Below, piece by piece: positions 1,282 to 64,000 of a DNA stretch of 64,000 nucleotides. Source of the stretch: Aureococcus anophagefferens. Its lineage: Eukaryota > Sar > Pelagophyceae > Pelagomonadales > Pelagomonadaceae. The notes under the pieces were generated by a model that made no database searches, was not told where the DNA came from, and saw only the letters and a program-made list of their open reading frames with translations. The position numbers and the translations under genes were made by a program. Every line of letters begins with the position of its first letter. Positions within the stretch are counted from its first letter, which is position 1. The stretch spans positions 634,396-698,395 of the forward strand of contig NW_008705579.1 in the NCBI RefSeq assembly GCF_000186865.1, given 5' to 3'.

Positions 1282-3395
1282 ATGGTGGGACCATTTCCGC
1301 GCCGCCGGGCCGTCGTGGCCTGCGCGCTCCTCGCGGCGCCGCGCCTCGCCGCGGCGCAGCGGGCGCGGCGGCTCCAGAAGGGCCCCAACGGCGGGAAGAA
1401 GCCGCCGCCCGGCGGCCCGCCGCCGGCCCACGACGACGGGTGGGAGGAGGACGGCGACGAGGACGAGGAGTGGGACGACGAGGAGTGGGACTGGGACGAC
1501 GAGGAGTGGGGGGACTGCGAGGATTGGGACGAGGGCTGCGAGGATTGGGACGAGGGCGAGGCCTACGGCTACGGCCACGGCGGCTACGGCTACGGCCACG
1601 GCGACGAGTGGCGGGACGAGGGCGAGGAGTGGCGCGGCGGCAAGGAGGGGAACCTCGAGGGCCATGAGTGGTGCCTCTGGGAGGTCACGGCGGAGTTCGT
1701 CAACTTCGGCGTCAACGGCGGCCGCTGCTTCGGCTGCTCCGGCATGGCCGACGAGGACGAGCTCGTGGCCCACTGCCGCGAGCTGTGCCTGAAGGACGCG
1801 GACTGCGTCGCCTTCGAGACCGCGCCGGACGGCGTCGATTTCTACGAATCCGAGTTCGAGGGGAAGCGCTACTACCTCGACGGCTTCGACCACAACGGCG
1901 TCAACTGCTGCCTCGAGCAGAGCAGGAAAAGGGTGCGAAATTCCCAACTTCAAAGGCTCCTATCTCGGCCGTTTTCCACTCGTTTCGGCTGATTTTTGGA
2001 CGAGCGATCATCTCTTGGAACGGCCTCGAAGCATGGATGCTTTTTCCGGAACGCGCGCGCGCGGAACACTCACGTTGAAGCGACGTTGAATCATCCTTTT
2101 CCTGCCCAGGCCTCGAGCACCACACGTCGTCCAACAAGGGCTCTCCAAATTCCTGGCAGAGGAGCGGCGACGTCGACGGCGACTGCCCCGCGGAGGTGTC
2201 GCTGTGGACGACGCGGGAGCTCGTCGAGGGCGAGGCCGAGTTCTGCGACCGCGACTACGGGCTGGATTTGGGCGTGTGCACGGCCTACGCGGAGTACGAC
2301 TTCGACGATTCCGAGGACGCGAACGTCGCCCGGAGGGACCTCTACCTCGAGCGGGGCTGCGCCGCGATCGTCGACGGGTTCTACTACTTCATCCTGGCGA
2401 TGTGTTTCCTCGCGGGCGCCCTCGTGACGTTCCTGGCCGCGGCCTGCTGGATTTTTGACGCCCTGCAGGACCAGGAGCGGAAGTCGCGGCTCCGGGCGGG
2501 CACGTGCGTCGTCGTCGTCGCGTCGGCGCTGGTCTGGTTCTTCGGCCTGCTGCCGGCGGTCTACTGGCTCCCTCCGGTCTACGAACTCTCCTACGCGGGC
2601 GCCGGCGTCGGGCTCGTCTTCGGCCTCGCGGCGCACGCGAAGCCCGTGAAAAAGCGCCTGCTGCCCCGGGTCGACGGCAAGACCTACTGCGTCTCGCCGG
2701 CGGGGGACGTGGCGCGGGTCGAGGCGGAGATGGTGCCGGCCATCGAGGCCGTGCCCATCGACCGGAGCCCCGTCGTCGTCGACGGCCGGCGCGAGCTCGA
2801 CGGCGCCCACGACGAGGAGAAGGAGGAGCGGTCGCCGGTCGCGCGGTCGCTCACGCCCTCCAAGGCCATCATGGCCGAGTCCCTCAAGTCGGTGCCGCGC
2901 GCCGGCGACGACGAGTACGACGTCTTCATCTCCCACTGCAAGAAGCTGCCGACGTCCGAGGACCGCGCGATCTGGCTCGCGGATCTGTTCGAGGGCGAGG
3001 GCCTCAAGGTCTTCTTCGACCGGAGCGACCTGCTGGAGATCAGCGAGGCGGCCCTGCGCGACGCCGTGCGCGCGTCGCGCGTCATCGTCACCGTCGTCGA
3101 CCCCGTGACCTTCGACAGCGTCTGGGTCGCGAACGAGAACGCCTGGGCCAAGGACCTCGGCAAGCCCATCGTCGCGTTCTACGACCGCGACCGCCACGCG
3201 TGGGACGAGATCAGCAAGTGGGTGCCCCTCCACCCGCACGTCTTCGCGCGCCAGGCCATCCCCTACACGAAGGACTACCGCACGGAGGCCAAGGACAAGC
3301 TCCTCCGCCAGGTCGACCTCGCGCGCCGCGACGCGACGGTCCGCGGCCACGCGGCGCTCAAGGGGCTCCACGCCGCGGGCTCCGCGACCTTCTAA
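1282..3395 (+). CDS. TIR-domain membrane receptor-like protein (two exons, introner-split)
   Basis: Exons 1282-1909 and 2110-3395 join in frame into 637 residues once the introner is removed. The order is: signal peptide (1-25); an Asp/Glu/Trp-rich tract with Gly-Tyr-His repeats (about 50-120); a Cys-rich extracellular segment resembling PAN/apple modules (about 128-212); three hydrophobic segments (about 296-326, 340-365 and 369-386); and a cytosolic TIR domain (about 477-620) opening with YDVFISH. The TIR motif SVWVANENAW keeps a Glu where plant and SARM1 TIR domains have their NADase glutamate. Known TIR domains act as signalling scaffolds or NAD-cleaving enzymes. By inference this is a surface receptor that signals through TIR. 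The ligand is unknown. Confidence 0.8.
1910..2109 (+). mobile_element. Introner A-type, acting as intron (GC-AG, phase 1)
   Basis: This 200-nt AT-richer insert lies between two copies of GCCTCGAG (1910-1917 and 2110-2117). The ends are CAGAGCAGGAAAAG and CTTTTCCTGCCCAG, an imperfect 14-bp inverted repeat. Splicing from the GC of the left duplication to the CAG of the right terminus restores the uninterrupted frame. It carries the core TTCGGCTGATTTTTGGACG shared by all introners in the window. Confidence 0.92.
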
Positions 3396-3439
3396 AGGCA
3401 CCTCGATCGAAGCGCTCGAGTCGGCCGTTACGCCGCGCG

Positions 3440-3493
3440 GGCCCGTCGTCGCCGCGCCCGGAGGACAGTCTCCCCCCGGGCGCCGCGAGTCAT
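3440..3493 (-). promoter_or_regulatory. Candidate SECIS element in the SelW-like 3-prime UTR
   Basis: On the minus strand an ATGA (3493-3490) is followed by a GC-rich hairpin whose arms TCGC...GCGCCCGG and CCGGGCGC...GCGA pair fully. It closes over a loop of about 14 nt (GGGGAGACTGTCCT), and GA dinucleotides follow the 3-prime arm. The ATGA quartet, a helix of about 12 bp and a large apical loop fit the general SECIS plan. The usual AA in the apical loop is not obvious, so this is a candidate only. Confidence 0.5.
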
Positions 3494-3518
3494 CTCGCCC
3501 GGCGCGGTGTTCCGCGGC

Positions 3519-3878
3519 CTACTTGAGCTTCTGGAGCGACTTCTTGATCTCCGGCACGGCGCGGTGGCCGTACTTGGAGAAGAGGTCCTTCTGACTGCCA
3601 GACCAGACCTGCGTCTTCGCGCCGTCGGTCGTCGCGTCGATGGTGACCTTGATGGGGTACGCGTCGACGCGGTTCGGCGACACGTCCGCGCCGGGGAACT
3701 CGTCGAGGATCGCCTGTTTGGCAGCAGAGAACTCCTGCTGCCCCCCGTCTCAGTTCTTGCAGTAGGTCACCAGGAAGCTCGGCGCCATCTTGCTCGACGA
3801 CGGCGACGACGACTCGCGGAGCACGTGGAGCGAGGCGGCGGTGGCGAAGGTCGACAGCAGCAAAGCGATCGGTTTCAT
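3519..3878 (-). CDS. SelW/Rdx-family selenoprotein with in-frame UGA
   Basis: Read from the ATG at 3878, a signal-peptide-like start (MKPIALLLSTFATAAS) leads to the motif TYCKN, then an in-frame TGA at 3750-3752, then 76 more sense codons to TAG at 3519-3521. The TGA sits exactly at the second position of a CxxU redox motif (C40, U43). The sequence after it (AAKQAILDEFPGADV, then PEIKKSLQKLK) matches the layout of selenoprotein W: redox loop, helix, DEFPG turn, strands, C-terminal helix. SelW proteins are thioredoxin-fold redox proteins. A stem-loop with SECIS features starts 25 nt after the stop. The product would be 119 residues. Reading the TGA as a stop would leave a 42-residue peptide ending just before the active site. 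Pelagophytes are known for large selenoproteomes. Confidence 0.8.
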
Positions 3879-4144
3879 GCAAGGCGTGCGCGCGACGAGC
3901 AGCGGCGGCGCGCGACGGTGCGGGCGTCGAGCGGGCGCGGAGCCTCGGAGCGCCGAGCGGCAGCTCGCCGCTAGGCTAGGAGAGGTTAACAGCTAGAGGG
4001 CCTACCCGGGGGGTTTGCGGCACCAGGCCTCGCGGCACTGGGACTCCAAGCCTAGCCGCGACCGCCGCACCGTCAGCCTCGCCACAGCGAGCTTGGCAGC
4101 CACCCTCGTCGTCGCGCGACACTGCACGCCACGCGTCGACGACG

Positions 4145-5521: not shown

Positions 5522-5575
5522 CGGAATTTTGTTAAAACACGAGGGCGATAGAAAAGGGGAGGGGGGCTGGGCGCC

Positions 5576-13724: not shown

Positions 13725-15094
13725 ATGGCGCCCGTGAAGCTCATCCTCCACTTCGACATCAATCAGACCTTGATCCTCGAGGACAAGGCCGGCGGCGACT
13801 CCTTCGAGGACGCGCTGAACCTCATCGTCTGCAAGAGCGCCTTCGTGCGCATCAAGGGCGGCGGGGGCAGTGCGCAGGAGGCGAAGGAGGCGACGAGCGT
13901 CGACCAGCTCGAGTGGATGAACGGCCACCCCATCGACGGCTCCGCGGTCGACCCCAACAAGGTCGTGTGCACCGGCTGGGACTGGCCGCCGGGCTGCGTG
14001 CCCTTCCACCGCGTCGCGCTCCTCAAGGGCGTCGGCCGCGCGTTCACGGAGAAGGGCAACCCGGGCCACCCGCTGCGGGGGGTCTACAAGCGGCTCCGCG
14101 AGGCGATGACGATCCCGGAGACGGACGAGCCGGTCGACGCTCGGCTCGCGACGGACTGCGGCAAATTCTGGCTCGTCGTGCCGTCGTTCTTCGAGATGCT
14201 CGCGGGGTTGGCCATGACCCTGCGCAACTTCTCCCTCGTCTTCCGGACCTACGGGTCCGAGGCGGCCAAGGTCGTCCGCGCGTTGAACGCGTTCGCGGAG
14301 GGCAAGCACCCCTTCGCGCGGGGCGTCCCGTCGCTCGCGTCGGACCCGGAGGACGCGTGGACGGGCCGCTACCAGGACGACGGCAAGTACACGCTCACAA
14401 GGACCGCCGGCGTGGCGACGACGGCGCTCGACGAGACCGCGGCCGTGAAGCGTTTGGAGGACCGCGACGCCGACGGGCCGTCGGCGCACGCGGTCGTCGA
14501 CGACTACGGGTGGTGGAAGAAGAACTACCACATGCCCGAGGCGGGCAAGCCGCTGTGGATCGACCTCGCGGACAAGCGGTGCCACCACGTCTTCTTCGAC
14601 GACAACATCCACAACAGCGACGCGGATTCCATCGTCGCCGTCCGGGCAGGAAAAGAGTGATTCAACGTCGCTTCAATATGAGTGTTCCGCGCGCGCGCGT
14701 TCTAGAAAAAGCATCCGTTCTTCGAGACTGTTCTGAGAGATGATCGCTCGTCCAAGAATTAGCCGAAACGAGTGGAAAACGACCGAGATAGGAGCCTTTG
14801 AATTTGGGAAATTCGCACTCTTTTCCTGCCCAGGTCGCCGTCCGCGTCCGCGACCGCGAGACGGCGCCCTTCACGCCCCTGAGCGGCTTCCGCGCGCTCC
14901 ACCTCCAGGGCGTCTTCCTCGTGCGCGTGCCCACCATGCTCGCGATCCTCGACGACACGTGGTTCCTCGCGCGTTTGCAAGACGCGGAGCAGAAGAAGGC
15001 GGACCTCCAGAAGGGCGGCCGCCTCGCGGTCATCTGCCGGGGGCGCCACTCGGCCCTCGACATCAAGGTCGACGCGACTAAAAAGCCACGCTGA
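13725..15094 (+). CDS. HAD-like hydrolase family protein (two exons, introner-split)
   Basis: Exons 13725-14633 and 14834-15094 give 389 residues in frame. The start LILHFDINQTLIL (about residues 5-17) is the HAD motif I, but the second Asp of DxDxT is replaced by Asn. FFDDN near residue 292 resembles motif IV. A large central region with WWKKNYHMP and TLRNFSLVFRTYG is typical of an uncharacterised HAD subgroup found in algae and oomycetes (from memory, not searched). With the acid/base Asp altered, phosphatase activity may be weak or absent. The ATG at 13725 lies in a GCCCATGG context; no upstream ATG is in frame. Confidence 0.75.
14634..14833 (+). mobile_element. Introner A-type, reverse orientation, acting as intron (GT-AG, phase 0)
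   Basis: A 200-nt insert is flanked by GTCGCCGT (14634-14641 and 14834-14841; the identity extends three bases further). The ends are CCGGGCAGGAAAAG and CTTTTCCTGCCCAG. The body is the reverse complement of the copy in the TIR gene, yet it still splices because both termini read CAG outward. Removal joins ATC to GTC GCC and keeps the frame. Confidence 0.92.
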
Positions 15095-22121: not shown

Positions 22122-22171
22122 NNNNNNNNNNNNNNNNNNNNNNNNNNNNNNNNNNNNNNNNNNNNNNNNNN
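22122..22171. other. Assembly gap of 50 N
   Basis: Fifty consecutive N mark a scaffold join. It separates the end of the FKBP frame from the start of the plastid membrane protein frame, so neither boundary is known. The true size of the gap may differ from 50. Confidence 0.98.
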
Positions 22172-22904: not shown

Positions 22905-25898
22905 ATGGTGAAACTCATTAGCCTTCTCACCGTCGGCGCGCTGCTCGACGCGACGCGCGCGGTCGACATCGATGCCATGCGCCGCGACCTCGTGGCAGCC
23001 GTCGACGCCGGCGCCGTCAAGAACACGACGGAGTGCCACGCGCGGCTGCTGACCTACGAGTACTCGTTGACCCTCCTCCCCGCGCGCGCGCCGCTCCTGG
23101 AGGCCTTCGACGCCCTGGAGCTCGAGGCGGCGTGCGGCGTGCCGCGGCCCGCACGCCGGCGCGCCGGCGTTCCCGCCCCACTCGCCCGCGCCGGACGGCG
23201 CGGTCTTCGTCGCCGTCGACGGCGCCGACGGCGGCGCGGGCACGGCCGCGGACCCCTTCGCGACGGCCGCGCGGGCCCTGGCCGCGACGCGCGCGGGCTG
23301 GCGCGCCGAAGGCCATCGTCTTCCGCGGCGGCGTCCACTTCCTCGGGGCCACGCTCGAGCTCGACGGCCGCGACTCCGGTCTCACGCTGTCGAACTACGA
23401 GAACGAGGCCGCGTGGCTCAGCGGCGGCGTGCCGCTCGCGACGACCTGGGCGCGCGCGGCGAACGCCACCTACGAGACGCGCATCGACGAGACCTTCCCC
23501 TACCGCGGCACGATCCTGGGTTTGAACGTCGTCGAGCCGCACCGGCGCTTCGTGCGGGCGCGGTACCCGAACGGCGGCGGCTCCGTCGGCGTCGAGACGC
23601 GGTCCGGCGTGGGTCAGGTCAAGTCGTCCGACATTTTGAGCTACGGCGCGCCGCCCGTCGTGCCGCCGGCGGCCCAGGTCTACGTCGCGGATCCCGCCTA
23701 CGCCGCGTCCGCGTCGGAGCACTTCAACGCGTACGCGTCGGGCCGATGCGCCTTCGCCGGCGACCCGCTCTGCCCCTGCGGCGCCTGGCGCGACACGGAC
23801 GGCGACGGCAACTGGGTCTCCGAGAGCTACTGGTGCAGCAACGTCTCCGGCGGCGGCTGGGCGGAGATGGACAGGGGCGACGGGTTCTGGAACGGGCCCG
23901 TGCTCCCGACGAACGTCACGCTCCGGGGCGGCAGCGACCTCGCGGCCCGCGCGGCGACCTGGTCCCCCAAGGCCCGGGGCGAGGCCGTGGTGACGGCCTG
24001 GCGCGCCCAGGGCTGGTTCGTCGACATGTTCCGCGTCGACGACGTCGTCGCCGACGGCGACGGCGGCGCGACGCTGACGTGGAGCTACGGCGGCTTCCAG
24101 GGCGGGCGCGGCTGGCAGGTCGACGGGAAGAAGGGGATCATCGACCCGCTGCCGCCGTTCTACGTCGAGAACGTGCGCGAGGAGCTCGACGAGGCCGACG
24201 AGTGGCACTTCGACAACGACACGAAGATTCTGTCCTACGCGCACAACGGCACGGGCCCGCCGCCGGAGGACTGGCAGTTCGTCGCGCCGGACCTCGCGAC
24301 GCTCATTTCTGTCGTCGGCACGAAGGAAAAACCCGTCGAGGACGTCACGATCCGCGGCCTCGGCTTCCGCGACGCGTCGATCACGTACATGGACGCGTGG
24401 GGCGTGCCGTCCTGGGCAGGAAACAAAAATATTCGACACGACTTCAATATGCACGGTTTTGAATTTTTTGTCGCCGTCTAGAAAGAACCCGCCGAAAGAA
24501 AACGATCCGTCCAAAAATCAGCCGAAACGACTTCGATTTGACCGAGATAGAGAAGTTTTTGCTGGACGGGGCGTTCCACTGGTCGTTTCCGGCACAGGTG
24601 CCGTCGGGCGGCGACTGGGCGTTGCACCGCGGCGGCGCCGTCTTCCTGGAGCACACGGCGCGCGTCACCGTGGAACAGAGCAAGTTCGAGCGCGTCGACG
24701 GCAACGCGCTGATGGTCAGCGGCCGGAACCGGAACGCGACGATCGCCGACAACGAGTTCGCGTGGATCGGCGACTGCGCCGTCGCGGCGCGGGGCCGCGC
24801 GGAAAGCAAATCTTCAATCCGACTTCAATGTGCGCGCAATTGAACGGATTGCACCGGACTCTTTGACTGTGCTTCGAGAACTCAGTGGTTGATTTCCACA
24901 CAGGCGTGGGGCCGCGCCGACGACGGCGACGGCAGTGCGCTCGACGTCCCCCTGCGCACGACGCTCCTGCGCAACTACGCCCACGAGCTCGGCATCTTCG
25001 AGCTCCAGAGCGCCATGTTCTTCCCTGTGTGGTCGCATACGCTCACATCGAAGTCGGGTCGAAGATTTGAGTTCCACGCAGGTACTTCCAGGCGAAGGCC
25101 GCGCTCACGACGATCTCCTCGAACGTCTTCTTCAACGGGCCGCGGTCCGCGATCAACTTCAACGACGGCTTCGGCGGCGGCAATGTGGTGGATCGCAACG
25201 CCATCTGGAACGTCTGCCGCCAGTCCGGCGACCACGGGCCGATCAACTCCTGGGACCGCCAGGCGTACCGCACGCCGCTCCGCGACCCGAGCGGCGGCTG
25301 GGCGCCGCTGCCGACGGTCATCTCGCGCAACGCGATCATCGCCAACTACGGCGGCTCCCAGGGCGTCGACAACGACGACGGCTCGTCGTGGTACGACATC
25401 TTCGACAACTTTTTCTACGGCGAGGGCCTCAAGAACGACTACGGGGGTCACGACTCGTCGTACCACGGCAACGTGAACGTCGTCCACCCCTACGACGGCC
25501 AGAACTGCATCAACGTCTGGGCCTTCGACGCTTCCGCGCCGGGCCCCTGCGTCGGCGGGCCGGAGACGGCCGAGCCGTGCTCCCACGCGCACCTCTTCCA
25601 CGACAACATCTGCGTGCTGCTCACGGACGTGGCCCAGGGCTACGGCACGCAGCAGCAGGTCGCCTGCGCGGCGAAAGACGGGACCTTCAACCCGAAGGCC
25701 CCGGACCAGATGGCGAAGATGCGCGACAACCGCTACTACACGGCCAACGGCTCCGCGTTCCTCAAGTGCCCGGACAAGACGGAGCTCGCGAGCCTCGCGT
25801 TCCTCCAGAGCGGCGGCGTCGAGCTCGGCTCCACGGAGGGCACGATCCCCGACGACGCGACCATCGTGGCCTGGGGGCGCGCCGCGCTCGGCTTCTGA
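22905..25898 (+). CDS. Secreted right-handed beta-helix protein with three introners
   Basis: The protein is about 870 residues, starting with a signal peptide (MVKLISLLTVGALLDATRA). The segment DGAVFVAVDGADGGAGTAADPF is the usual opening of pectate-lyase-like parallel beta-helix proteins. Later coils include HRGGAVFLEHTARVTVEQS and RNATIADNEFAWIG, and the Asp/Tyr-rich WYDIFDNFFYGEGLKNDYGG segment suggests a polysaccharide-active or surface protein. Introns at 24404-24597, 24787-24903 and 25017-25081 are introners; exons 24598-24786, 24904-25016 and 25082-25898 join in frame. In the first 400 bp the frame shifts twice (near 23135 and 23300) without usable splice sites, which looks like one-base sequence errors. 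Its substrate is unknown. Confidence 0.75.
24404..24597 (+). mobile_element. Introner C-type acting as intron (GT-AG, phase 0)
   Basis: A 194-nt insert is flanked by perfect GTGCCGTC copies (24404-24411 and 24598-24605). The left end CTGGGCAGGAAAC resembles the A-type terminus; the right end GTTTCCGGCACAG resembles a different terminus. It shares the body type of the copy at 30180-30372 and carries the common core CGTCCAAAAATCAGCCGAA. Confidence 0.9.
24787..24903 (+). mobile_element. Introner B-type, internally deleted (GC-AG, phase 0)
   Basis: A 117-nt insert is flanked by GCGCGGGG (24787-24794) and GCGTGGGG (24904-24911). It keeps the B-type left body (AAATCTTCAATCCGACTTCAA) and right end (GGTTGATTTCCACACAG) but has lost about 95 nt of the middle, including the core. 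Splicing still joins GTC GCG to GCG TGG in frame. Confidence 0.85.
25017..25081 (+). mobile_element. Introner B-type, extreme internal deletion (GT-AG, phase 2)
   Basis: Only 65 nt remain, flanked by GTTCTTCC (25017-25024) and GTACTTCC (25082-25089). The outer left end CTGTGTGG and the right segment GAAGTCGGGTCGAAGATTTG...CCACGCAG are recognisable as B-type in reverse orientation. Removal gives GCC ATG TAC TTC, in frame with both exons. Confidence 0.8.
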
Positions 25899-37262: not shown

Positions 37263-38719
37263 ATGGCCGACGATCCCGGCGCCGCCGAGGCGCGCCTCGC
37301 CATCGTGCGCTTCGGCGTCATCTGCCTGAAACACATGCGGCGCGTCGCCCTCGGCGCGCGCCTCGCGCTCATCGCACTGGGCCTCGCCGTCGACGCCCTG
37401 CGGCCGCTGGGCCTGCGCTACACGGACGTCGACTACGACGTGCTGCGCGACGGCGCCGCGGCCATGGTCGCCGGCGCCGCCGGCGGGCCCTACGCGCGCG
37501 CGACGTTCCGCTACAGTCCTTTGCTCGCGCTGCCGCTCGTCGGCGACGTCGCCGCCGCGGGCCTGCCCGTGGGCAAGGTCGTCTTCGCCCTCGCCGACGT
37601 CGCGCTCGGCGCGCGCGTCGAGGCGCTGCTCCGCGCGCGGGGCCTCTCGGCGAACCGCGCGGCGGCGCTCGCGGCCGCGGGCTGGTATCTGAACCCCGTC
37701 GCGCTCAACCTGTGCACGCGCGGCAGCGGCGACGCGGCCGTCGCGGCGCTCGTCGCGGGCGCCCTCGTCGCCGCGGCGGCCCCGGGGCTCCGCGGCGCGG
37801 CGGCCGCGGGCGCGGGGCTCGGCCTCGCGGCGCACGCGCGGCTCTACCCCGTCGTTCACGCGCCGGCGTTCGCGCTCGCCTTTTTGCGACGCGACGGCGT
37901 GACTCGCGCGCTCGCCTTTGGCGGCGCCTTCGCCGCCGCGGCCGCCGCGCCGACGGCCCTCGCCTATTTCTGCTACGGATCGACCTACGTCGACAACGCG
38001 CTGGCCTACCACGTGACGCGCCTCGACCACCGCCACAACCTCGCGGCCTTCTGGCTGCCCATCTACGCCGTCGAGGGCCTCCCGGGCGGCTCGCGCTTCA
38101 AGCCGCTCCTGCGGCGCGCGCTCGCCGTCGGGCCCTTCCTCGCGCACGGCGCGCTCCAGGCGGCGGCGGTCAGGGCAGGACAAGAGAGCGAAATTCCAAA
38201 CTTCGAAGGCTCCTTTCTCGGCCGTTTTCCACTCGTTTCGGCTGATTTTTGGACGAGCGATCATCTCTCGGAGCGGTCTCGAAGCGTGCATGCGTTTTCC
38301 GGAACGCGCGCGCGCGGAACACTCACGTTGAAGCGACGTTGAATCTCTCTTGTCCTGCCCAGGCGGCGGTCGTCGGACTGCGCCGCGACCTCGCGGCGAC
38401 GGTCTTCGCGCAGACGCTCCTCTTCGTGGCGGCGAACAAGGTCTGCACGGCGCAGTACTTCTGCTGGTGGCTGCCCTTCGCCGTCGTCGTCGCCGGGCCG
38501 GGCCTCGTCCACGCGCGCCACGGCGCCGCGAAGCGGCGGACCGTCGCGCGCGCGCTCGGCTCCTGGGCCGCGGCGCTCGCGGCCTGGCTGGCCGTCGCGT
38601 TCCGCTTGGAGTTCGCCGGCGACGCGGCCCACGGCCCGCTCTGGGCCCTGGGCCTCGGCTTCCTCGGTGCCAACGCGGGGCTCCTCGCCGCGGTCCTCGA
38701 CGCGGGCGGCGTGTCCTAA
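37263..38719 (+). CDS. PIGM: GPI mannosyltransferase I (two exons, introner-split)
   Basis: Exons 37263-38162 and 38363-38719 give 418 residues. The enzyme adds the first mannose, from dolichol-phosphate-mannose, to the GPI precursor in the ER. The family DxD motif lies in LRYTDVDYDVLRDGA (near residue 52), followed by PYARATFRYSPLLALPL. LAAHARLYPVVHAP, YHVTRLDHRHNLAAFW and the C-terminal TAQYFCWWLPFAVVVAG are hallmark PIG-M segments. About ten hydrophobic helices are visible. The introner falls between Ala codons in phase 0, and the protein reads through as GALQAAAVVGLRRD. ATG 37263 is preceded by an in-frame GTG that I did not use. Confidence 0.93.
38163..38362 (+). mobile_element. Introner A-type acting as intron (GC-AG, phase 0)
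   Basis: A 200-nt insert is flanked by perfect GCGGCGGT copies (38163-38170 and 38363-38370). The ends are CAGGGCAGGACAAG and CTTGTCCTGCCCAG; the A-to-C change in one end is matched by the compensating change in the other, so the terminal pairing is kept. Removal restores the PIGM frame. Confidence 0.93.
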
Positions 38720-41501: not shown

Positions 41502-42957
41502 TTAGCCGACCCTCGCCTCGCGCGCCGCCCCCGAGCCGACGGCGGCGAGGATGGCCGCGTTGCACGCTTCCGGGTTCTCGAGGTGGATCTGGTGGCCCGC
41601 GTCCGGCACGAGCACGAGCTCCGCGCCGAGGTCGGCGACCGCGCGCTCCGTGAGGCCGTTGAGCATCCAGTCGCGCTCGCCGTAGAGCACGGTCGTCGGC
41701 GGGAGCGACGGCGCGCGCGGGTCGTCGACGAGCGCGCGGCGCGCGTAGATGCCCCGCAGCGCGTCGTCGCGGTCCGCGGGCTTGAACAACGTCGTCAGCA
41801 CCCACTCGCTGCTCCCCGGCAGGGCGTTGATGTTGTAGAGGTAGTCGGCGAAGGCGTCGGGCACGTCGCCCGCCCGGCGGTACAAATGCTTGACGACGGG
41901 CCGCGCGCGCCGGCTCTGGTCGCCCAGGAGCCGGATGAGCCTGTGCCGAATTCAACCACTGGTTTGGGGGGTCCTGACCAAACTTGAGAATTCTCTAGCT
42001 CGGTCAAATCGAAGTCGATTCGGCTGATTTTTGGACAAATCGATTGCTCTCATCGAGTTCTCGAAGCCAAGCCGAAGAGTCCGGCGCAATCCGTTCAATT
42101 ACGCGCACATTGAAGTCGGGTTGAAGATTTGATTTCCACGCAGGGATGAGCGATTGGGGCGTGACGTGATAGTCCCACAACGCCACGAGCGGCCGCCCGA
42201 ACGAGAAGCACGCGTAGCGCGGCCGCGCCGCGGCGGCGAGCGCCGCTTCTAAAGCGTCGTCGTCCAGCCCCTCCGGGTGGCGCGGCACGCCCGCTGGCGA
42301 CACGAGGACGAGTTTGTCGACGGCGCCGGGGTGGCGCAGCGCGTAGTGCGCGGCCAGGAAGCCGCCGACGGAGTGGGCGACGAGCGTGAACGGCGCGCCC
42401 GCCGGCAGCACGCGCCGCCGCCAGGCCTCGAGCGAGTCCGTGAACCAGGCGACGGCGCCGTCGGCGACGTCGTCGTCGCCCGACGTCTCCGCGCGCGCGA
42501 GCGGCGTCGGCCGCGCCGCGCGCGCGAGCGGCGTCGGCCGCGCGGGGAACCCGCCCGGCCGGTCGCTGCAGCCCTGGCCGAGCCAGTCGAAGGCGAGGAC
42601 GCGGCGCCGCGCGTCGACGGCTAGAGTCTCCAGGTTCCGGAAGAAGACGCCCTTGCCCGCGCCGAAGCCGTGAGCGACGACGATCGGCGACGCCGTCTCG
42701 ACGCGCGGCGGGTCGACCGCGACCGTCGAGATCTTCACGGGGTGCGGGATCTGCGGGATGACGATCTCGGGCGCGAGCCGGTCGACGCGCGCCTTCGTCG
42801 TCGATTTGATGAGGAGCTCCTCCTCCGCCGCGAGCGCCTTGGCCAGGCGCGTCTGCTGCGTCGTCTGCGCGAAGAAGGTCGGCAGGAGGCTCCGGGGGAA
42901 GCGGCGCTCCCGGGGCGTCGCGGACGCGGCGAAGCGGCGGACGATCATGCGTCGCAT
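41502..42957 (-). CDS. Alpha/beta hydrolase of the ABHD4/ABHD5 (CGI-58) type (two exons)
   Basis: Exons 42957-42152 and 41940-41502 give 414 residues. IVVAHGFGAGKGVFFRNLE is the oxyanion region, LAFDWLGQGCSDRP is a standard ABHD strand, and VAHSVGGFLAAHYALRHP (near residue 190) holds the nucleophile Ser. YGERDWM and GHQIHLENPEA in exon 2 supply the acid and the His. The spliced junction reads YHVTPQSLIRLLGDQSRRARP, matching the conserved ABHD5 text. CGI-58 itself lacks the Ser; because this protein has it, an active lysophospholipase or N-acyl-phospholipid lipase such as ABHD4 is more likely. An Arg-rich N-terminus may target it to mitochondria. ATG 42957 is the first in frame. Confidence 0.9.
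41941..42151 (-). mobile_element. Introner B-type with two different ends (GC-AG, phase 2)
   Basis: A 211-nt insert is flanked by perfect GCTCATCC copies. On the minus strand it begins CTGCGTGGAAATC and ends GAATTCGGCACAG, so its two termini come from different terminus types and do not pair well. Splicing restores CAA TCG CTC ATC CGG in the ABHD frame. Confidence 0.92.
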
Positions 42958-43157: not shown

Positions 43158-45100
43158 ATGGACTACATGCCCGACCCCAGCGCGCCGTCGCCGCCGCCGC
43201 CGCGGCAGCAGTCGCCGCGGTCCGACGCGACCTTGACCGGCGCCACGCCGCCGCCGAAGCGGTCCAAGTGGAACTCGCGCACGGAGTTCCTGCTCGCCAC
43301 GGTCGGCAATTGTGTCGGCGTCGGCAACGTCTGGCGCTTCCCGTACCTGTGCTACCGCAACGGCGGCGGCTCGTTCCTCGTGCCCTACTTCCTCGCGCTC
43401 CTCCTGCTGGGCATGCCGCTCTTCCTCCTCGAGCTCGCGCTGGGCCAGCGCTTCGAACTGGGCGCGACGCACGCCTACGGCAAGCTGCACCGGCGGTTCC
43501 GGGGCGTCGGCGCCGCGGGCACCTTGATGGCCTACGTGTGCCTCTGGTACTACAACGTCATCCTCGCGTGGACCGTGGTCTACGCGGCGCACAGCCTGCG
43601 GCCGCGAGTGCCCTGGGGCGCGGACGGCGTCGACGCGGAGCGCTTCTGGGAGGCGCAGGTGCTCCACGAGTCGTCGGGCTTCGACGACTTCGGCGAGCGC
43701 GGGCCCGCGTCCGCGGCGCTCTTCTTCGCGCTCGTCCTCTCCTGGACGTGCCTGTTCCTCGCGACGCGGCACGGCGTCCACAGCGCGGGCAAGGTCGCGT
43801 ACGTCGCCGCGACGGCGCCCTACGGCATCCTCGTGTTGCTGGTGATCCGCGGGCTGACGCTCCGGGGCGCGGCCGAGGGCCTGAAATTCTACGTGAGGCC
43901 CGACGCGCGGAAGCTCGCGACGCCGCGGCCCTGGCTCGACGCGGCGAACCAGATCGTCTATAGCCTGGGCGTGGGCACGGGCCAGATGATCGCCTTCGGG
44001 AGCTACAACCCGGCCGACGAGGACGTCGTCGCGGACTCGCTCGCCATCGCCGGGGCAGGAAAAGAGTGCGACATTCCCAAGGCGCATCTCTCGGCCGTTT
44101 TCCGCTCGTTTCGGCTGATTTTCGGACGAGCGATCATCTCTCGGAGCGGTCTCGAAGCGTGGGTGCTTTTTCCGGAACGCGCGCGCGCGGACCACTCGCG
44201 TTGAAGCGAACTTGAATCACTCTTTACCCTGCCCAGGCCATCGCGGCGTTGAACTCGTGCACGTCGCTCTTCGCGGGCGTCGCGGTCTTCGCCATGCTCG
44301 GCCACAAGGCGCGGCGCGACGGCGCGGACGTCGGGGACGTCGTGGCGAGCGGCGAGGGCCTGGCCTTCGTCGCCTACCCCGACGGCTTATCTTCGTTGCC
44401 CGCCGCGGGGCTGTGGTCGTTCCTCTTCTTCGTCATGCTCTTCGCGCTGTGCCTGGATTCGGGCATGGCCATGCTCGAGTGCTGGACGACGATGCTGCGC
44501 GACTTCGGCGTCTTCTCCCACGACGCCGAGGAGCGGTGGACGGTGCTGGGACGGCGGCCGCGGAGCCAGGACGTGGTCGTCGGCGGCTCGTGTCTCTTCG
44601 GCTTCTGCGGAAGCCTGCTCTTCATCACGCGGCCGGGCATCTACTGGTTCGCGCTCGTGGACCGCTACGTCATGTGGGGCGTCTTCCTCGTCGCCGCCGT
44701 CGAGTGCTGCGGCGTCGCGCACGTCTACGGCGCGCGGCGCTTCGCGGACGACGTCCGGAAGGCGACGGGCCGGGCGGTGCCGCGCTTCTTCCTCTTCGCC
44801 TGGAGCTGGGGCACGCCGGCCTTCTGCGTCCTCCTCGCGGGCGCGTCGTTCCAGAGCGCCTTCGCGGACTCGACCTACGAGGGCGCGCGGTCGACGGCGA
44901 GCGCCAAGGCCATCGGGTTCCTGCTCATGGTCGGGCCCGCGTGCCTGATGGCCGGCGGCGCCTTCGAGCGGCCGTCGCCGTCCTACTGCGCCGTCGAGAA
45001 GCCCGCCGCGAGCGTCGAGCTCACGGCCGTCGCGGCCGCGTCGCCGACGAAGGGGGGCGGGCGGCTCGCGCGCGCGGCGTCGGGCGCCGAGTTCGTGTAA
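43158..45100 (+). CDS. SLC6-type sodium-dependent symporter (two exons, introner-split)
   Basis: Exons 43158-44042 and 44237-45100 give 582 residues. The family signature is strong: NCVGVGNVWRFPYLCYRNGG in TM1 (near residue 50), with the residues that bind sodium and substrate in LeuT-fold transporters. Twelve hydrophobic helices can be followed, including QIVYSLGVGTGQMIAFGSYN (TM6) and LDSGMAMLECWTTML (TM8). These carriers import amino acids or related amines with sodium. A proline-rich cytosolic N-terminus precedes TM1. The introner falls just before TM7 in phase 0, and the protein reads DSLAIAALNSCTSLF. The substrate cannot be assigned by eye. Confidence 0.93.
44043..44236 (+). mobile_element. 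Introner A-type acting as intron (GC-AG, phase 0)
   Basis: A 194-nt insert is flanked by perfect GCCATCGC copies (44043-44050 and 44237-44244). The ends are CGGGGCAGGAAAAG and CTTTACCCTGCCCAG. It lacks a few bases near the left side compared with other A-type copies (AAGGCGCATCTCTCGG). The frame is restored exactly. Confidence 0.93.
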
Positions 45101-47801: not shown

Positions 47802-50015
47802 CTAGTTGAGGAAGCCCCGGCCGAAGCCCGCGCCCAAAGCGCGCGCCTTCTTCCGCGCGGCCTTGGCCTGGGACGCGAGGGCCTCGGCGTCCCCGGAGAT
47901 GTCGAAGTCACCGTCCTCGAGCAGCTCCATGGCGTCGCCGGCGGGCGCCGGCGGCGGCGCGTCGCGGTTCACGCGGAGGTGGCCAAAGGGCACCGTCGCG
48001 CGCGACTCCGGCGCTTTGGGCGCGTCGGGGAACTTGGCGCGCTCGGCCTCCTCGATGAGGTTCTTCGCCCGCACGTACTCGGCGCACTCCTCCAGGGACG
48101 GCTCGCCGTGGGTCCGCGCGCGCTTCGCGAGCTCCGCGGCGCGGACCTTCGCCGCGGCGCGGATCTTCTCCGGGTCGTCGTCGGGCCAGGGCTTGCGCCG
48201 CACGGGCTCGTCGGTGTCGCAGGACGTGCAGACCAGGTCCGCGCGGAGGCGCTCGAGGTGCGTCAGGGGCTTCTTCGGCGGCGGCGCGGGGCCGTCGTCG
48301 ATGCGCGACAGGTCCTCGACGACGGGCCTGCGTGGACATCAAATCTTCGAGCCGACTTCACTGTGCGCGTAATCGACGGCTTCGACGCAATCTCTTTGGC
48401 TGTGCTTCGAAAACGCGACGAGAGCCATCGATTCGTCCAAAAATCAGCCGAATCGACGTCGATGTGATCGAGAACGAGAGGTTTGACGTTTGGTGGGGAC
48501 CCCCCGAACCAGCGGTCGATTTCCACGCGGCGACGGGCTCGTCCAAGTCCGCGGGGTCGACGTCCCGCCGACTCGTGTCGACGAAGTTCGGCGGCGGCGG
48601 CACGTCCAGCGCGCTGGCCTTGGCGATCCAGGACGCGGCCCAGAACGTCTTCTTGCGCCGCCTCGCGTCCGCGACGTCGTAGTCGACCTGGGCAGCAAAA
48701 GGATGATTCAACGTCGCTTCAACGTGAGTGTTCCGCGCGCGCGCGTTCCGGGAGAAGCATCCACGCTTCGAGGCCGTTCCAAGAGATGATCGCTCGTCCA
48801 AAAATCAGCCGAAACGAGTGAAAAATGGCCGAGATCGAAGCCTTTGAAGTTGGGAATTTCGCTCTCTTTTGCTGCCCTGTAGTCGGCCAGCTTGTCGAGC
48901 ACGAAGAACTTCTGCAGCTTCTCCCGCCACTCGAGCCACGTGCGCTGCTCCGCGTACTCGCCGTCGCGGCTCAGCGTGAAGCGGTCCGGCCCGTCGTCGC
49001 CGTCGGCGGCCTTGGGCTTCTTGCGCGCGACCCGGGCCTCGGCGATGACAAAGGACCCGCCCGGCGTGAGCGACCGGCGGATCTTCGAGAGCGCGGCCTC
49101 GAGGAGGTCCCAGGGCACGTGCTTGAGGCTGTCCACCGCGAAGGCGCCGTCGAAGGTGCCGCCCTCGCCCTCGCCGAAGAACGACGCCTCGAAGAACTCC
49201 TGCTCGCGGAACTCGCACTTGAAGCCGACCTTGCGTTGTTCCGCGCGCGCCGCCGCGAGGCCGCACATGCCCGCGGAGCCGTCGACGCCGACGAAGTCGA
49301 TGCCCACGCGGCTCCGCGCGAGCTCGACGGCGTCGCGGCCGCCGCCGCTGCCGAGCTCCAGGATGCGCAGGCCGTTGTGCGCGCGGCCCGCGGCCATCTT
49401 CGCGACCGCGGACTCGCGCTTCATCTTGTGGTCCCGCAAACTCCGAAACAAGAGCTCCGCCGGCGGGCTCAGGTCCTTCAGGGGGTCCTCGACCTCGGGC
49501 GGCGGGTCCGCCTCCCATTTCAGCGCCAGCGAGTTGAAGTGGGCCAGGGTCCGCGAGATCGCCACCGCCGCCGGGATTTTGGGGCCCCGGGGCCGCCGCC
49601 AGGCGATGTCCTGGTTCACCTTGATCTGCTCCTTCTTCGCGCGCTCGGCCCAGTACTCGCCCTGGTGGTCCGGCACCTCCATGACGAACTCGACGAGCTT
49701 CTCGCTCACCCAGCCGTGCACCGGCGAGATGATCAGCAGCCGGAGCGTCCCCGCGGAGTTGAGCGCGCGGTGCACGGCGACGACGTCGCTCATCGGCGCC
49801 AGCGTCTTGACGATGCGCGACTTGAGCTCCTGGTGCGTGCGCACGATGGCCCCCTTGACGACGCGCTCGGGGATCTTGCACACCGCCGGCACCTTGAAGG
49901 CCACGGGCATGGCCGCGATGACGGCGCGCTCCTGGCCCGCCTCCTCGGCCTGCGCCCGCCGCGCCGCCTCGAAGACGGCGCCGTTGAAGTCCACGGGCTG
50001 GAGGCCGCCCGCCAT
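47802..50015 (-). CDS. Methyltransferase-domain protein, 600 residues, three exons split by introners
   Basis: Exons 50015-48888, 48687-48539 and 48327-47802 total 1,803 nt in one frame. Residues 1-200 are an unrecognised alpha/beta region (KVPAVCKIPERVVKG, then LLIISPVHGWVSEKLVEF). A class I SAM methyltransferase follows: LRILELGSGGGRDAVELA near 217, FVGVDGSAGMCGLAA, and LTPGGSFVIAEARV. The C-terminal 200 residues are basic and helical, with a single CTSCDTDEP motif and EEAERAKFPDAPKAPE. The substrate is unknown. The middle exon is only 149 nt and lies between two introners of different subfamilies. The ATG at 50015 is 247 bp from the divergent IPT gene. Confidence 0.85.
48328..48538 (-). 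mobile_element. Introner B-type acting as intron (GC-AG, phase 2)
   Basis: A 211-nt insert is flanked by perfect GCCCGTCG copies on the minus strand. The ends are CCGCGTGGAAATC and GATGTCCACGCAG. It is in reverse orientation relative to the copy at 53463-53673. Splicing restores GAC GAG CCC GTC GTC GAG in frame. Confidence 0.92.
48688..48887 (-). mobile_element. Introner A-type with one-base target-site mismatch (GC-AG, phase 0)
   Basis: A 200-nt insert is flanked by GCCGACTA (left) and GTCGACTA (right) on the minus strand. The ends CAGGGCAGCAAAAG and CTTTTGCTGCCCAG both carry the same G-to-C change, so they still pair. The left duplication has GC where the right has GT, which places the change exactly at the 5-prime splice site. 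Confidence 0.92.
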
Positions 50016-51203: not shown

Positions 51204-52857
51204 TTACACAAGCGCGCCGCGCGGCGGCGTCGGCATGCGGACGCCGGTGCCCTTCGGCGCCGACGGCCGCGCGGGCGCGCGGAGCGGCGACGCCGGCGCG
51301 CGCGGCGCCGGCGGCGCGCGCGGCGCCGGCGGCTCCCTCGCCGTCATCTCGACGGCGGCCTTGGGGAAGCCGCGCTGCGGCGCCGGCTCGGTCCGCTCCC
51401 GCGTCCTCGCCAGGAACGGCCGCCAGATCATGAAGTTGATGAAGCCGGAGAGCGCGAGCCAGACGGCCTGCGTGAGGATGAGCCAGGGCTCCGTGCCGCC
51501 GCTGTGCACGTAGCCGTCGAGGCGGAAGATGATGCCGTAGACCCAGACGAGCACGAAGGTCTCCGTGACGAGGAGCGCGCGGAAGCACAGCTCGTGGTGC
51601 TTCTTGAACTCGGCGGCCACGCGGCCGCTCGGCGTCGCGACGCGCGTCAGCGACCGGTGGAGCGACGCGTTGAGCGACCGGACGACGACGACGACGGACA
51701 CCTGCGTCGCAGCGTCGATCCATGGGCGACGGTTTCGAAGCTCTCGAGCGCTCGACGAGCGACGACGGCGCGTCCGAACGTCGGCCGAAACGACGCGACC
51801 GAGCCGCGTCGAACGATTCGCGCGCGCGGGCGGACGCCTGCGCGAGGAGCACGTAGAGGTAGAGCGGCCCGTAGAAGGCGAAGACCCAGTGGCCCGTGAG
51901 CCAGCACGTGCCGTCGGCCGTCGGGCCCATGGCGCCCGCCGCGTGGGCCGCGACGCAGGACGCGAGCGCGGACGTCCAGACGAACAAATGGTACCTGGGC
52001 AGGAAAAGAGAGCGAAATTCCCAATTTCAAAGGCTCCTTTCTCGGCCGATTTCCACTCGTTTTGGCTGATTTTTGGACGAGCGATCATCTCTCGGAGCGA
52101 TCTCGAAGCGTGGATGCTTTTTCTAGAACGCGCGCGCGAAACACTCACATTGAAGCGACTTTGAATCACCCTTTTCCTGCCCTGCGTGGTACGTTGTCAG
52201 ATAGCGCCGCGCGAGCGTCAGCCGGTTCTTCCGCCCCACGGTCAGCGGCCGCACCATGGTCAGCACGAGGTGCAGGCCGTAGATCGTCGACCAGGAGATC
52301 GTCGCGAGTCCGAAGAACTGGCCGAACCACGCGGAGACGTAGCAGAGCGGCCCCGGGCTGTTCGACGGCCGGATGCCCGTCACCGTCAGGAACGACGACG
52401 CGAAGAATTTCAGGGCGAAGCCGAAGTCGCAGAGGGACGTGCACTGCATGATGTGCATGAGCGGCTGGTAGCGCAGCTCGTCGGGGGACGTGTGCACGCG
52501 GTACATGATGTAGCCCGACCCGCCCATGCTCGCGAGGCCGCCGACGCCGTAGATGAGCGTCACGCACCAGAGGAAGGCGGTGCCGACGATGCGCCGCGAC
52601 ATGACGAGAAAGAACCAGGGCACGACCGTGTAGGCGACGACGAGCGCGAGGAACTCGCGCTGGCGCACGGAGTAGCGCAGCAACGGCGCGCGGCGCTCCA
52701 AATAGGGCAGCATCAGCACGACGTCGCTCAGCGTGGAGAAGGACGCCTCCCGCTTCGGGCGAAAGATGGACTCGCGCACGCGTCGCCACCGCCGCTTCTT
52801 CGGCTCCTCCTTGGCCTCCTCGACGCCATCGTCGACTGCCCGACTCGACGACGCCAT
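51204..52857 (-). CDS. cAMP-receptor-like seven-helix GPCR (three exons)
   Basis: Exons 52857-52193, 51994-51838 and 51701-51204 give 439 residues. Seven hydrophobic helices can be counted. CYVSAWFGQFFGLATISWSTIYGLHLVL is a typical helix 3 region of the Dictyostelium cAMP-receptor-like class, with a paired Cys in CWLTGHWVFAFYGPLYLYVL. TFVLVWVYGIIFRLDGYV and WLALSGFINFMIW are helices 6 and 7. The cytosolic tail is Pro/Ala-rich. Such receptors signal through heterotrimeric G proteins; the ligand is unknown. The first intron is an introner, and the second (136 nt) is a likely GC-rich introner relic. Without the second splice the helices after 5 fall out of frame. Confidence 0.85.
51702..51837 (-). 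mobile_element. Probable GC-rich introner relic acting as intron (GC-AG, phase 0)
   Basis: A 136-nt intron starts GCGTCCGC and is followed by an exon starting GTGTCCGT, six of eight bases matching in the expected target-duplication positions. Inside is TCGTTTCGGCCGACGTTCGG, aligning with the A-type core TCGTTTCGGCTGATTTTTGG, followed by text matching the A-type in its GAGCG...TCGAGAGCTTCG layout. Termini are no longer recognisable except for CGCAG. It looks like an old copy drifting toward genome GC content. Confidence 0.6.
51995..52192 (-). mobile_element. Introner A-type, reverse orientation (GT-AG, phase 2)
   Basis: A 198-nt insert is flanked by GTACCACG and GTACCATT on the minus strand; the last two bases differ. 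The ends are CAGGGCAGGAAAAG and CTTTTCCTGCCCAG. Splicing joins ACA AC to G TAC CAT TTG in the GPCR frame. Confidence 0.92.
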
Positions 52858-53021: not shown

Positions 53022-54096
53022 ATGTCCGCCATGTCCAAGACCATCCTCGTCACCGGCGGGAACAGCGGCATCGGCGCGGCGCTCTGCAAGCTCCTCGCCA
53101 CGGAGCACGGCTGCCGCGTGCTCCTCGGCGCGCGGTCGCCGGAGAAGGGCGAGAAGGCCAAGGCCGACATCGTGGCGAAGTACCCCGACGCGAAGATCGA
53201 CGTCGTGGCCATCGACGTCGCGTCCGACAGCTCCGTCGCCGCGGCGGCGGCAGCGGTGAAGGCCATGGGCGTCACGTTGTACGCGTTGGTCAACAACGCG
53301 GGCCTCGGCCTCGCGCAGGCGGACGACGACGCGCACAACACGGCGGCGGTCATGAACGTCAACTACGCGGGCCCGAAGCGCGTCACGGACGCCTTCGTCC
53401 CGTTGATCCAACCCGACGGCGGCCGCGTCGTCAACGTCTCGTCCGGCGCCGCGTCCGCGTGGGTCAAGGGCTGTGTTGAAATCAAATCTTCAAGCCGACT
53501 TCAACGTGCGCATATGCGAAAGTTCCGACGCAAGCTCTTCGGCTGTGCTTCGAGAACTCGGCGAGAGCAATCGATCCGTCCAAAAATCAGCCGAATCGAC
53601 TTCGATGTGACCGAGCTAGAGAGGTTTGAAGTTTTTGCTGGACGGGGCGTTCCACTGGTTGATTTCCACACAGGTCAAGGGCCAGGACGCGGCCACCAAG
53701 AAGCTCTACTCGACGCCGGGCCTCACGCAGGCCCAGCTCGACGCCTCCGTGGCCAAGGAGGTCGCCGCGGGCAACGTCGGCTGGGGCGACGGCTACGGCA
53801 TCTCGAAGGCGGCGCTGACGGCGCTGACCCTCGTCCAGGCCGCGGCGCACCCGACGCTCGTCGTCGTCTCGCTGAGCCCGGGCTTCATCATGACGCCCAT
53901 GACCGTGGGCTACGGCGCCAAGCTCTCGCCCGAGGAGGGCTGCAAGTCCTCGATCAAGTGCCTCTTCGGCGACGTCGTCTCGGGCCTCTACTACGGCAGC
54001 GACGGCCTCCGCTCGCCCATGACCGTGAGCCGCGACCCGGGCACGCCGGAGTACGCGGGCGAGGACGACCCGGACCCGGCCAAGTACAACAAGTAA
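53022..54096 (+). CDS. Short-chain dehydrogenase/reductase, carbonyl-reductase-like (two exons)
   Basis: Exons 53022-53462 and 53674-54096 give 287 residues. ILVTGGNSGIGAALCKLLA (near residue 10) is the NADP-binding TGxxxGIG motif, LVNNAGLG the structural NNAG, NVSSGAASA holds the catalytic Ser, and YGISKAALTAL (near 189) the YxxxK pair. The pattern and length fit cytosolic carbonyl reductases, which reduce quinones and ketones. No targeting signal is visible. A second in-frame ATG at 53031 is an alternative start. The introner lies in phase 0 between Trp and Val codons (SAWVKGQDAATKK). The stop is 3 bp from the stop of the convergent SDR. Confidence 0.92.
53463..53673 (+). mobile_element. 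Introner B-type acting as intron (GT-AG, phase 0)
   Basis: A 211-nt insert is flanked by perfect GTCAAGGG copies (53463-53470 and 53674-53681). The ends are CTGTGTTGAAATC and GATTTCCACACAG. It carries the core CGTCCAAAAATCAGCCGAA near 53578. Splicing restores the SDR frame. Confidence 0.93.
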
Positions 54097-57721: not shown

Positions 57722-57917
57722 CGCCGGCGGCGGCGGCGCGGCGAGAGCGCGACGGCGGCGCGCGGCGAGAGAGCCTCTCGCGCACACCAGGCGGCGGCGG
57801 CGTCGATGGCGTCGAAGGCGAGGTGGCCAGTGGTCCGAGGCGAATATTGCCACAATTTCCTTTTTTTAACAATTGGCGCAGCGCCCTCCGGCGGGCACGT
57901 CGACACGAGCTCCCACT

Positions 57918-61576: not shown

Positions 61577-61582
61577 TAAGAT

Positions 61583-62614: not shown

Positions 62615-62740
62615 TGCGCTGGCGGCGTTCGCGGCGTGCTGCGTGCTGCGGGAGAGGATGACCGCCGCGCTGGTGCAGTCGCCGTCGATTGTTTCTGCCA
62701 CTCGTTCAGCGATGTTCAAGACATGTTCAAGTTGAAGAAC

Positions 62741-64000
62741 TTACGGCGCCGCGGCGAGGTCGTCCCGGGGCGTGGCGCAGTGGTCCCGGAGGCCCTTGTC
62801 CGAGTGGGCGAACGTGCTCAGGTTGTACTCGCGCTGGAAGAGCTCGTCGAAGAACGTCGAGAGCCGCGCCTCGTGGACTTGGCGCGTCTCCGGCTCGACG
62901 CAGCGCGGGAAGGACGCGTCGAGGAAGCGCGGCGACCGGCGGTAGGCCGCGAGGGACCGGCGGCAGAGCGCGTAGTCGCCGAGCGCGCCGCCCTGGAACC
63001 ACACCGCGCGGTCGACGGGGAAGAGCAGGAAGAACAAGGGGAACATCTTCAGGAACCAGACGAAGAAGTTCAGGCCCTCCGAGATGCCGATCTCGTACCA
63101 GAGCTGCGCGCCGCCGTCGTCGATCGTGTCCCAGAGCACGTGGAAGAGCACGTAGGCGATGCAGAGCCCGTGGACGCCGAAGAGGACGACGAGCAGCCGA
63201 TCGCCCGCGGACTTGAAGCGGCGCAGCTTCCGCGTCCGCTCCACGACCGCGCGCGCGGCGCCCGGCGTCGTCACGTCCAGGTCCCCCGCGAGGAGCGGCG
63301 CGTAGAAGCAGGGGCAGATGACGAGCTGGCGGATCAGGACCGCGTACAAGATCGTGAACGCGTACTTGATCGTATAGAGCGCCACCCGGCTCGTCGAGTC
63401 GGGCTCGCCCCGCTCGTACTCGTCGACGTCCATGACCTGGGCAGGAAAAGAGTGCGAAATTCCCAACTTTGGAGGCTCATATCTCGGTCGTTTTCCACTC
63501 GTTTCGGCTAATTTTTTGACGAGCGATCATCTCTCGGAGCGCTCTCGACGCGTGGACGTTTTTTCCCGGAACGATTGCGCGCGGAACACTCGTGTTGAAG
63601 CGATCTTGAATCACCCTTTTCCTGCCCTGGACCATGACGTGCCGCGACGCGATCCGGATCGTAAAATCCGTCCACAGAAAGTTGAAGGCCACGGAGCAGA
63701 CGAAGACGACCAGCCGCTCCTTCCGCGAGAACGGGTGGAGCGCGTGCGCGTAGAAGATGGACACCGTCGGGTGGAACTGGCAGCAGAACGCGCGCCAGTT
63801 CGACAGCCAGGTGCCGTCCGTGTTCGGGAAGCCGAAGCAGCACGGGATTGGCATGCCCCGCATCAAGAGCCGCACCGTGTCGCGGTTCCCGGGCAGCGTG
63901 AGGAAGAGCGTCTCGAGCACGCGGCGCGCGTGGTCCGACTCGGCGCGGCGCCGCGGCGACGGCGGCGGCGCGGGCTCCGGCGGCGGCGCGGGGGGCTTCG
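62741..64000 (-). CDS. Multi-pass membrane protein, 5-prime end beyond the window
   Basis: Two exons are visible: from the window edge to 63639, and 63436-62741. At least six hydrophobic segments occur, for example RLVVFVCSVAFNFLWTDFT, IKYAFTILYAVLIRQLV and LLVVLFGVHGLCIAYVLFHV. Upstream, a Pro-rich stretch precedes LETLFLTLPGNRDTVRLLM and a Cys-containing IPCCFGFPNTDGTWL. The text HPFSRKERLVVF is reminiscent of large stramenopile polycystin-like or transporter proteins, but I cannot assign a family. The stop codon TAA is at 62741-62743. The start codon lies past position 64000, so length and N-terminal domains are unknown. Confidence 0.75.
63437..63638 (-). mobile_element. Introner A-type, reverse orientation (GT-AG, phase 0)
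   Basis: A 202-nt insert is flanked by GTCATGGT and GTCATGGA on the minus strand. The left end has one extra C before CAGGGCAGGAAAAG; the right end is CTTTTCCTGCCCAG. Splicing joins CGG CAC to GTC ATG GAC in frame with both exons. Confidence 0.9.

Follow-up and report, generated by a model that had tools for sequence, protein, structure and literature searches.

Introners have already been described in the pelagophyte Aureococcus anophagefferens, where Huff, Zilberman and Roy are said to have characterized them, in Nature in 2016, as non-autonomous DNA transposons that leave 8-bp target duplications and reportedly draw one splice site from the duplicated target. We analyzed a stretch of 64,000 nucleotides from this species (contig C19:634396-698395 of a genome with 49.05 Mb and 86 contigs), hereafter the window, in which coding sequence is interrupted by 15 inserts and one relic. 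These inserts are very probably the published introners; their existence is not new, and the mechanism that we find is presumably the one published for them. The available parts of two further sources give Aureococcus introners a length near 210 bp (PMC9481584) and describe them as elements that insert in either orientation and whose splice sites are co-opted (PMC10228655), and the inserts in the window resemble them in all of these respects. The families of inserts found here differ in the use they make of their ends. Family B is a two-way element, with an acceptor at both ends and used either way round, whereas family A appears to be locked, with one acceptor end and usable in one direction only.

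To search for copies, nhmmer profiles of families A, B and C were made from the 15 inserts listed in a first-pass annotation of the window and applied at a threshold of E<=1e-3. They returned 15 hits in the window, exactly those listed. With filters switched off, the only new place in the window with E<0.05 was the relic, which had earlier been mentioned without coordinates and is now placed at 51702-51837 on the minus strand (136 nt). The elements measure 57-203 bp, each with an 8-bp duplication. The flanking repeats are perfect in 9 of the 15 inserts, agree at 7 of 8 positions in five (in 63437 only after a one-base shift) and at 6 of 8 in one (51995). Of the inverted ends, those of 7 inserts agree with each other at 12-14 of 14 positions and those of the other 8 at 7-11 of 14. 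The core said to be common to full-length copies is indeed present in 13/13 within 2 mismatches (7/13 exactly); allowing up to 3 mismatches, 13 cores lie in the window, compared with 0 in each of 100 shuffles. The two inserts at 24787-24903 and 25017-25081 carry internal deletions and lack the core. One detail had to be corrected: family A was described as ending in CTGGGCAGGAAAAG on both sides, and its end away from the acceptor in fact reads CAG, CGG or CCG.

The inserts had also been claimed to sit exactly where the reading frame needs an intron. All 15 read through once removed; left in place, they introduce an in-frame stop in 13 cases and a frame shift in the other two. The analysis was extended to a sample that joins the window with 20 spaced 10-kb stretches and with 30 loci surrounding the exact core matches listed first on contig C1; together these yielded 70 copies in 354,570 bases. 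Sixteen copies were dropped before counting (13 with a duplication below 7/8, 2 short and 1 at an edge), so that the remaining 54 are tilted toward well-preserved copies. Judged by a codon model fitted to the 20 spaced stretches (GC by codon position 0.71, 0.58 and 0.90), the reading frame is recovered for 49 of these 54 copies once the copy is taken out. In 46 copies the length is not divisible by 3; removal restores 42 of them, and none is readable with the copy left in. At random insert-free positions, a single frame is kept at 4,392 of 6,000. The 49 restored copies represent introns of phase 0 (25), phase 1 (11) and phase 2 (13).

A simple splice-site rule applies to the restored copies. 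Read along the coding strand, the duplicated octamer has GY as its first two bases in 48 of 49 (genomic GC+GT 16.9%), compared with 13 of 49 at the opposite end, and the sole exception, L032, has its boundary placed one base off. The acceptor-side end is CAG, again in 48 of 49. Donors are GC in 32 copies and GT in 16, a split in line with the genomic ratio (p 0.18), which suggests that the spliceosome of this species is nearly indifferent between the two; the 15 inserts of the window have 8 GC and 7 GT donors. High use of GC-AG introns is already known in A. anophagefferens, with 39.6% of introns given in the accessible part of PMC3033335. Out of 8 window proteins scanned, three have a Pfam alignment that spans the junction, namely PIG-M (PF05007), alpha/beta hydrolase (PF00561) and the SNF symporter (PF00209). 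The spliced PIG-M protein (insert 38163) shows 97-98% alignment to two records, one of them Aureococcus anophagefferens JL722_6711, which points to this species or a strain very near it as the source of the window. The PIG-M junction is crossed without added residues in 4 of 6 homologues (P0001, Aureococcus JL722 P0002, P0005 and Pelagomonas P0012). P0001 may derive from either a transcript or an empty genomic site.

The contrast between the families is clearest at the end away from the acceptor. In 24 A copies this end reads CAG (15), CGG (7) or another triplet (2), and never CTG in either core direction, whereas in B the other end is CTG in 16 of 22 copies. An A copy would thus be spliceable from one strand only, because position 2 of its other end is A (or G or C) and not T. 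Genome-wide, strict family-A patterns occur 499 times as CAG..CAG, twice in the two-way form CTG..CAG and never as CAG..CTG; the CTG..CAG pattern is palindromic, so each of its 2 places, at C13:1294372 and C21:630683, appears on both strands. The core itself points in either direction relative to the gene, in A (10 sense, 14 antisense) as in B (9 sense, 13 antisense), and likewise in the first 100 CAG..CAG copies listed (39 sense, 61 antisense). A role of the core as a splicing signal was considered and is unsupported for this very reason. Terminal position 2 is off-majority at 1 of 46 acceptor ends versus 15 of 46 other ends (p 1.6e-4; L032 and 63437, each with one end set one base off, are counted as departures). 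Departures are concentrated at the non-acceptor ends, as expected if splicing guards the acceptor only. The two ends of A co-vary at position 9 (agreement in 25 of 26 copies, 13.1 expected) and position 11 (23, 15.9 expected), but position 2 shows agreement in none of the 26 copies. The two B ends co-vary at positions 6, 7, 8, 11 and 12, with agreement above all but 0-2 of 2,000 shuffles.

Strand use also behaves differently on the trees of the two families. On the A tree (26 rows) built from all columns it needs 1 change, against 8.2 in shuffles (support 69/79); across the A trees only 0 to 1 of 500 shuffles are as low, and a single core-antisense clade is not rejected (p-AU 0.54). For two A copies without frame resolution (L026 and 48688 of the window), strand was assigned from the ends and the duplication, and the minus strand of 48688 is independently backed by read-through after removal. 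On the B trees (23 rows), strand use needs 9 changes with all columns and 8 without the end columns, compared with 7.2-7.4 in shuffles. These counts indicate that A copies inherit their strand use, unlike B copies. In the sample, one base parts the two A lineages, 10/10 versus 16/16.

Genome-wide, family-A duplications begin with G at both copies in 610 cases and with another base at both in 0, mixed pairs being excluded from this count; the 610 exceed the 499 above because the duplication pattern is less stringent on the right than the strict end pattern. It follows that unspliceable A copies are nearly absent. If non-coding duplications are unbiased, we estimate the non-coding share of A at under about 0.8% and its preference over uniform insertion at several hundred-fold, both on the estimate of a three-quarters-coding genome. 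The first-pass annotation had named mostly intergenic copies without target duplications as the finding that would speak against introners, and both the 54-copy sample and the family-A counts contradict such a distribution.

Every test that could be run, on duplications, inverted ends, frame restoration and the co-opted splice site, fits introners made by DNA transposons. The anatomy of the inserts, their duplications, the restored frames and the splice-site rule are observed directly. We are highly confident that the inserts are introners derived from non-autonomous DNA transposons, in which the GY start of the duplication provides the donor and the inverted end the CAG acceptor, two-way in B and one-way in A. 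Elements of about 185-203 bp would enter exons and leave an 8-bp target duplication. Given GY at the coding-strand start of the octamer, the first octamer copy would become the 5' splice site and the inverted end of the element the CAG 3' splice site, and removal would give the exon back exactly. B would serve in whichever orientation it lands. A consists of two lineages with opposite core direction, between which the switch was rare and may have proceeded via inversion between the inverted ends or a two-way intermediate. With a length of about 200 bp, the elements are probably non-autonomous and moved by a transposase acting in trans.

Several observations weigh against this interpretation. 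Searches of the genome in six frames for the transposase domains PF05699, PF18758 and PF10551 found none, with positive controls only in the MULE search (3/14); for the hAT transposase PF05699, which had no genome match, the control was silent too. Element ends that enclose foreign sequence, sought as the mark of an autonomous element, turned up in 1 match per pattern, on a par with the reversed-pattern control. Consistent flank frames are lacking in 5 of the 54 copies, two of which (29318 and 48688) read through in the removal test of the window. At the PIG-M junction, 2 of the 6 homologues, both named Aureococcus, give no clean crossing (P0003 is garbled and P0004 is without the region). That splicing of the inserts in RNA is a prediction from the DNA sequence counts here as well. 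Finally, leaving out the end columns raises the changes of strand use on the A tree to 3 (bootstrap range 2-5; 8.2 in shuffles), which does not establish one single switch, and the base that separates the A lineages is not fixed, with at least 4 of 61 listed core-antisense copies carrying that of the other lineage.

The A-end match from the foreign-interior search, at C1:1867680, is a diverged introner. Candidate viral or prokaryotic carriers were rejected. One exact core match each was found in IMG/VR and in prokaryote genomes; there the B and C profiles add just 9.7-13.3 bits (E 0.0047-0.067 over 25 loci), which we read as chance; and a shortened A-end pattern occurs in 23 viral contigs, none of them with an A-profile match at E<=1.

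Other origins of the inserts have to be weighed against transposition. Ordinary repeats or assembly artefacts that chance to sit in genes are almost certainly not the explanation, given thousands of dispersed copies with distinct duplications and exact frame restoration. RNA-based spread, in which the RNA of an excised intron enters another transcript by reverse splicing and is then copied to DNA, was proposed for fungal introner-like elements, and a splicing-linked mechanism of this kind would give the near-exclusive spliceable sense positions seen here. It is nevertheless highly improbable, because reverse splicing carries along the first eight bases of the donor gene and makes no duplication, whereas each copy has an 8-bp target duplication of its own and no well-preserved sampled copy keeps the first bases of a source intron; moreover, B lies in both orientations to the gene, with its core 9 times sense and 13 times antisense, and the ends are inverted repeats. 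The all-G duplications may instead reflect a transposase that cuts only G-first targets, and not just insertion into spliceable exons or persistence there, a reading that appears doubtful to us. Such a preference for G could account for some of the skew. For selection by itself, a count of 610 to 0 is extreme, and position 3 of the duplication is also G-rich (28/49 versus 36% background, p 0.003). The preference is one-sided, however, with GY at the other end in just 13 of 49 copies, and in B it tracks the gene strand rather than the direction of the element, so that a rule tied to one element end is insufficient. In addition, about 39% non-coding copies would be predicted on the same three-quarters-coding estimate, and at most 5 of 54 were found.

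The asymmetry at position 2 of A permits two further accounts. Position 2 may be disputed between a transposase, which would prefer A as in a hAT-like CAGGG, and the spliceosome, which needs T for the CAG acceptor. Family A would have settled this conflict asymmetrically, one end for each and against the homogenisation of the ends, its strand would have flipped rarely, perhaps once, by inversion, and insertion would be confined to transcribed coding DNA, hundreds-fold, so that it almost exclusively makes introns. Taken as a whole, we hold this scenario to be rather unlikely. Somewhat unlikely, too, is that the asymmetry serves splicing itself, through a CAGG downstream of the donor that aids U1 or similar, and is unrelated to any transposase. 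Orientation is set by the gene and not by the core in 24/24 frame-resolved A copies, which favors such a role, but the sister family B does without it, with CTG in 16 of 22 copies, and A is lost at this position in 9 of 24 A copies.

The proposed division into three families was sustained in part. A forms a clear group; C comprises only 2 full copies in the window and is a B-like mosaic that grades into B, with its 3' part as in B copy 53471 and its left end as in A. The kinship of A and B through a shared core was likewise correct as far as it went. The core is the best conserved part of the elements and holds the longest identical run between A and B (20 bases, a length reached by none of 10,000 shuffles), but the likeness extends past it, the A profile covering most of the B interior (about model positions 20-167) and the two consensus sequences sharing 52% identity over 191 columns. 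Genome-wide, the core occurs 3,790 times with up to 2 mismatches, and near-identical introns recur across numerous unrelated genes. The 20 spaced stretches hold 13 copies per 200 kb, and the window is denser, with 15 in 64 kb (p 0.001). Copies look clustered, with four introners within 2.7 kb at L040:5931-8560 and none in several other 10-kb stretches. A chromosome-wide strand bias, suggested by a plus-only run of core places, was dismissed as a listing artefact; L017 and L020 carry exact minus-strand matches.

Within the window, A introners with the core antisense lie on the plus strand at 1910-2109 (donor GC, acceptor CAG; duplication GCCTCGAG, 8/8; element 1918-2109), at 38163-38362 in the PIG-M mannosyltransferase gene and at 44043-44236 in a sodium:neurotransmitter symporter gene, the last two also with donor GC and duplications of 8/8. 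Another lies on the minus strand at 48688-48887 (donor GC, duplication 7/8) in a methyltransferase gene that also harbors a B introner at 48328-48538 (minus strand, donor GC, 8/8). A introners with the core sense, all with donor GT, are found at 14634-14833 on the plus strand (duplication GTCGCCGT, 8/8; element 14642-14833) and on the minus strand at 51995-52192 (6/8), in the same gene as the relic, and 63437-63638 (7/8 after the shift). Of the two C introners, one occupies 24404-24597 on the plus strand (donor GT; duplication GTGCCGTC, 8/8; element 24412-24597) and the other 30180-30372 on the minus strand (donor GC; duplication GCGGTCGC, 8/8), in the same gene as the B introner at 29318-29527 (minus strand, donor GT, 7/8; element 29318-29519), both ends of which are CTGTGCCGAATTC; the codon model leaves the flank frames of 29318 and 48688 unresolved. 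Full-length B introners also occur in a short-chain dehydrogenase gene at 53463-53673 (plus strand, donor GT, 8/8) and in an alpha/beta hydrolase gene at 41941-42151 (minus strand, donor GC, 8/8). This last element (41941-42143) has two different end types, CTGTGCCGAATTC at one end and CTGCGTGGAAATC at the other, which suggests recombination between them. An assembly gap of 50 N lies at 22122-22171.

Two B introners on the plus strand are reduced, one internally deleted to 117 nt (24787-24903, donor GC, 7/8) and one to 65 nt (25017-25081, donor GT, 7/8). Together with the C introner at 24404 they lie in one gene for a right-handed beta-helix-like protein (24404-25081). Exons of 189 and 113 bp lie between the three, which shorten in order from 194 to 117 to 65 nt. 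The relic at 51702-51837 (minus strand, donor GC, acceptor CAG) is a decayed introner flanked by the octamers GCGTCCGC and GTGTCCGT, which agree at 6 of 8 positions. With filters off, weak profile matches fall at 51728-51803 (E 0.0046 with A), and the minus-strand gene shifts its coding frame at this place, a shift for which removal of 51702-51837 accounts. Its GC content is 71%, versus 51-55% in four other inserts measured. The relic and the 117-nt and 65-nt copies suggest a route from introner to plain intron, on which ageing copies would shrink and drift in GC until they look like ordinary introns.

Among known systems, hAT transposons make 8-bp duplications, with ends of the form YARNG and a target signature nTnnnnAn. 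The introners resemble hAT elements and their miniature derivatives in the 8-bp duplication, and the non-acceptor end of A, CAGGG, fits YARNG. They differ from them in that CAG stands at one A end only (15/24), with CTG at the A acceptor end and at both B ends, and in the target signature, A occurring at position 7 in 7 of 49 duplications (background 14%). Given these two departures, we do not file the elements under hAT. The introns repeated in Amoebophrya, as far as the available part of PMC7789003 describes them, likewise combine inverted and direct repeats; unlike the GC/GT-AG introners with 8-bp duplications reported here, they use non-canonical splice sites of several kinds, and their direct repeats measure 3-5 nt. 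Also comparable are the introners surveyed across eukaryotes (Gozashti 2022, PMC9860276), for which the accessible portion of the article describes duplications, inverted ends, a carried acceptor, a donor taken from the duplication, copies enriched within genes and several families per genome, and allows for copies in opposite orientation. GC donors account for 0 to 50% per family there and for 32 of 48 here, and a contrast of one-way with two-way sister families is not mentioned in that portion. The literature searched, which did not include Huff 2016, yielded no account of sister families within a single genome that differ cleanly as one-way and two-way elements. Measured against that literature, the present analysis adds the one-way A branch, the asymmetry at position 2, the heritable use of strand and the 610-to-0 count. 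Overall, the contrast between one-way and two-way families separates what transposition demands of the element ends from what splicing demands, the one-way branch may illustrate the adaptation of a mobile element to the role of intron, and the count quantifies how rarely A persists where it is unspliceable, which bears on whether insertion or selection shapes intron gain.

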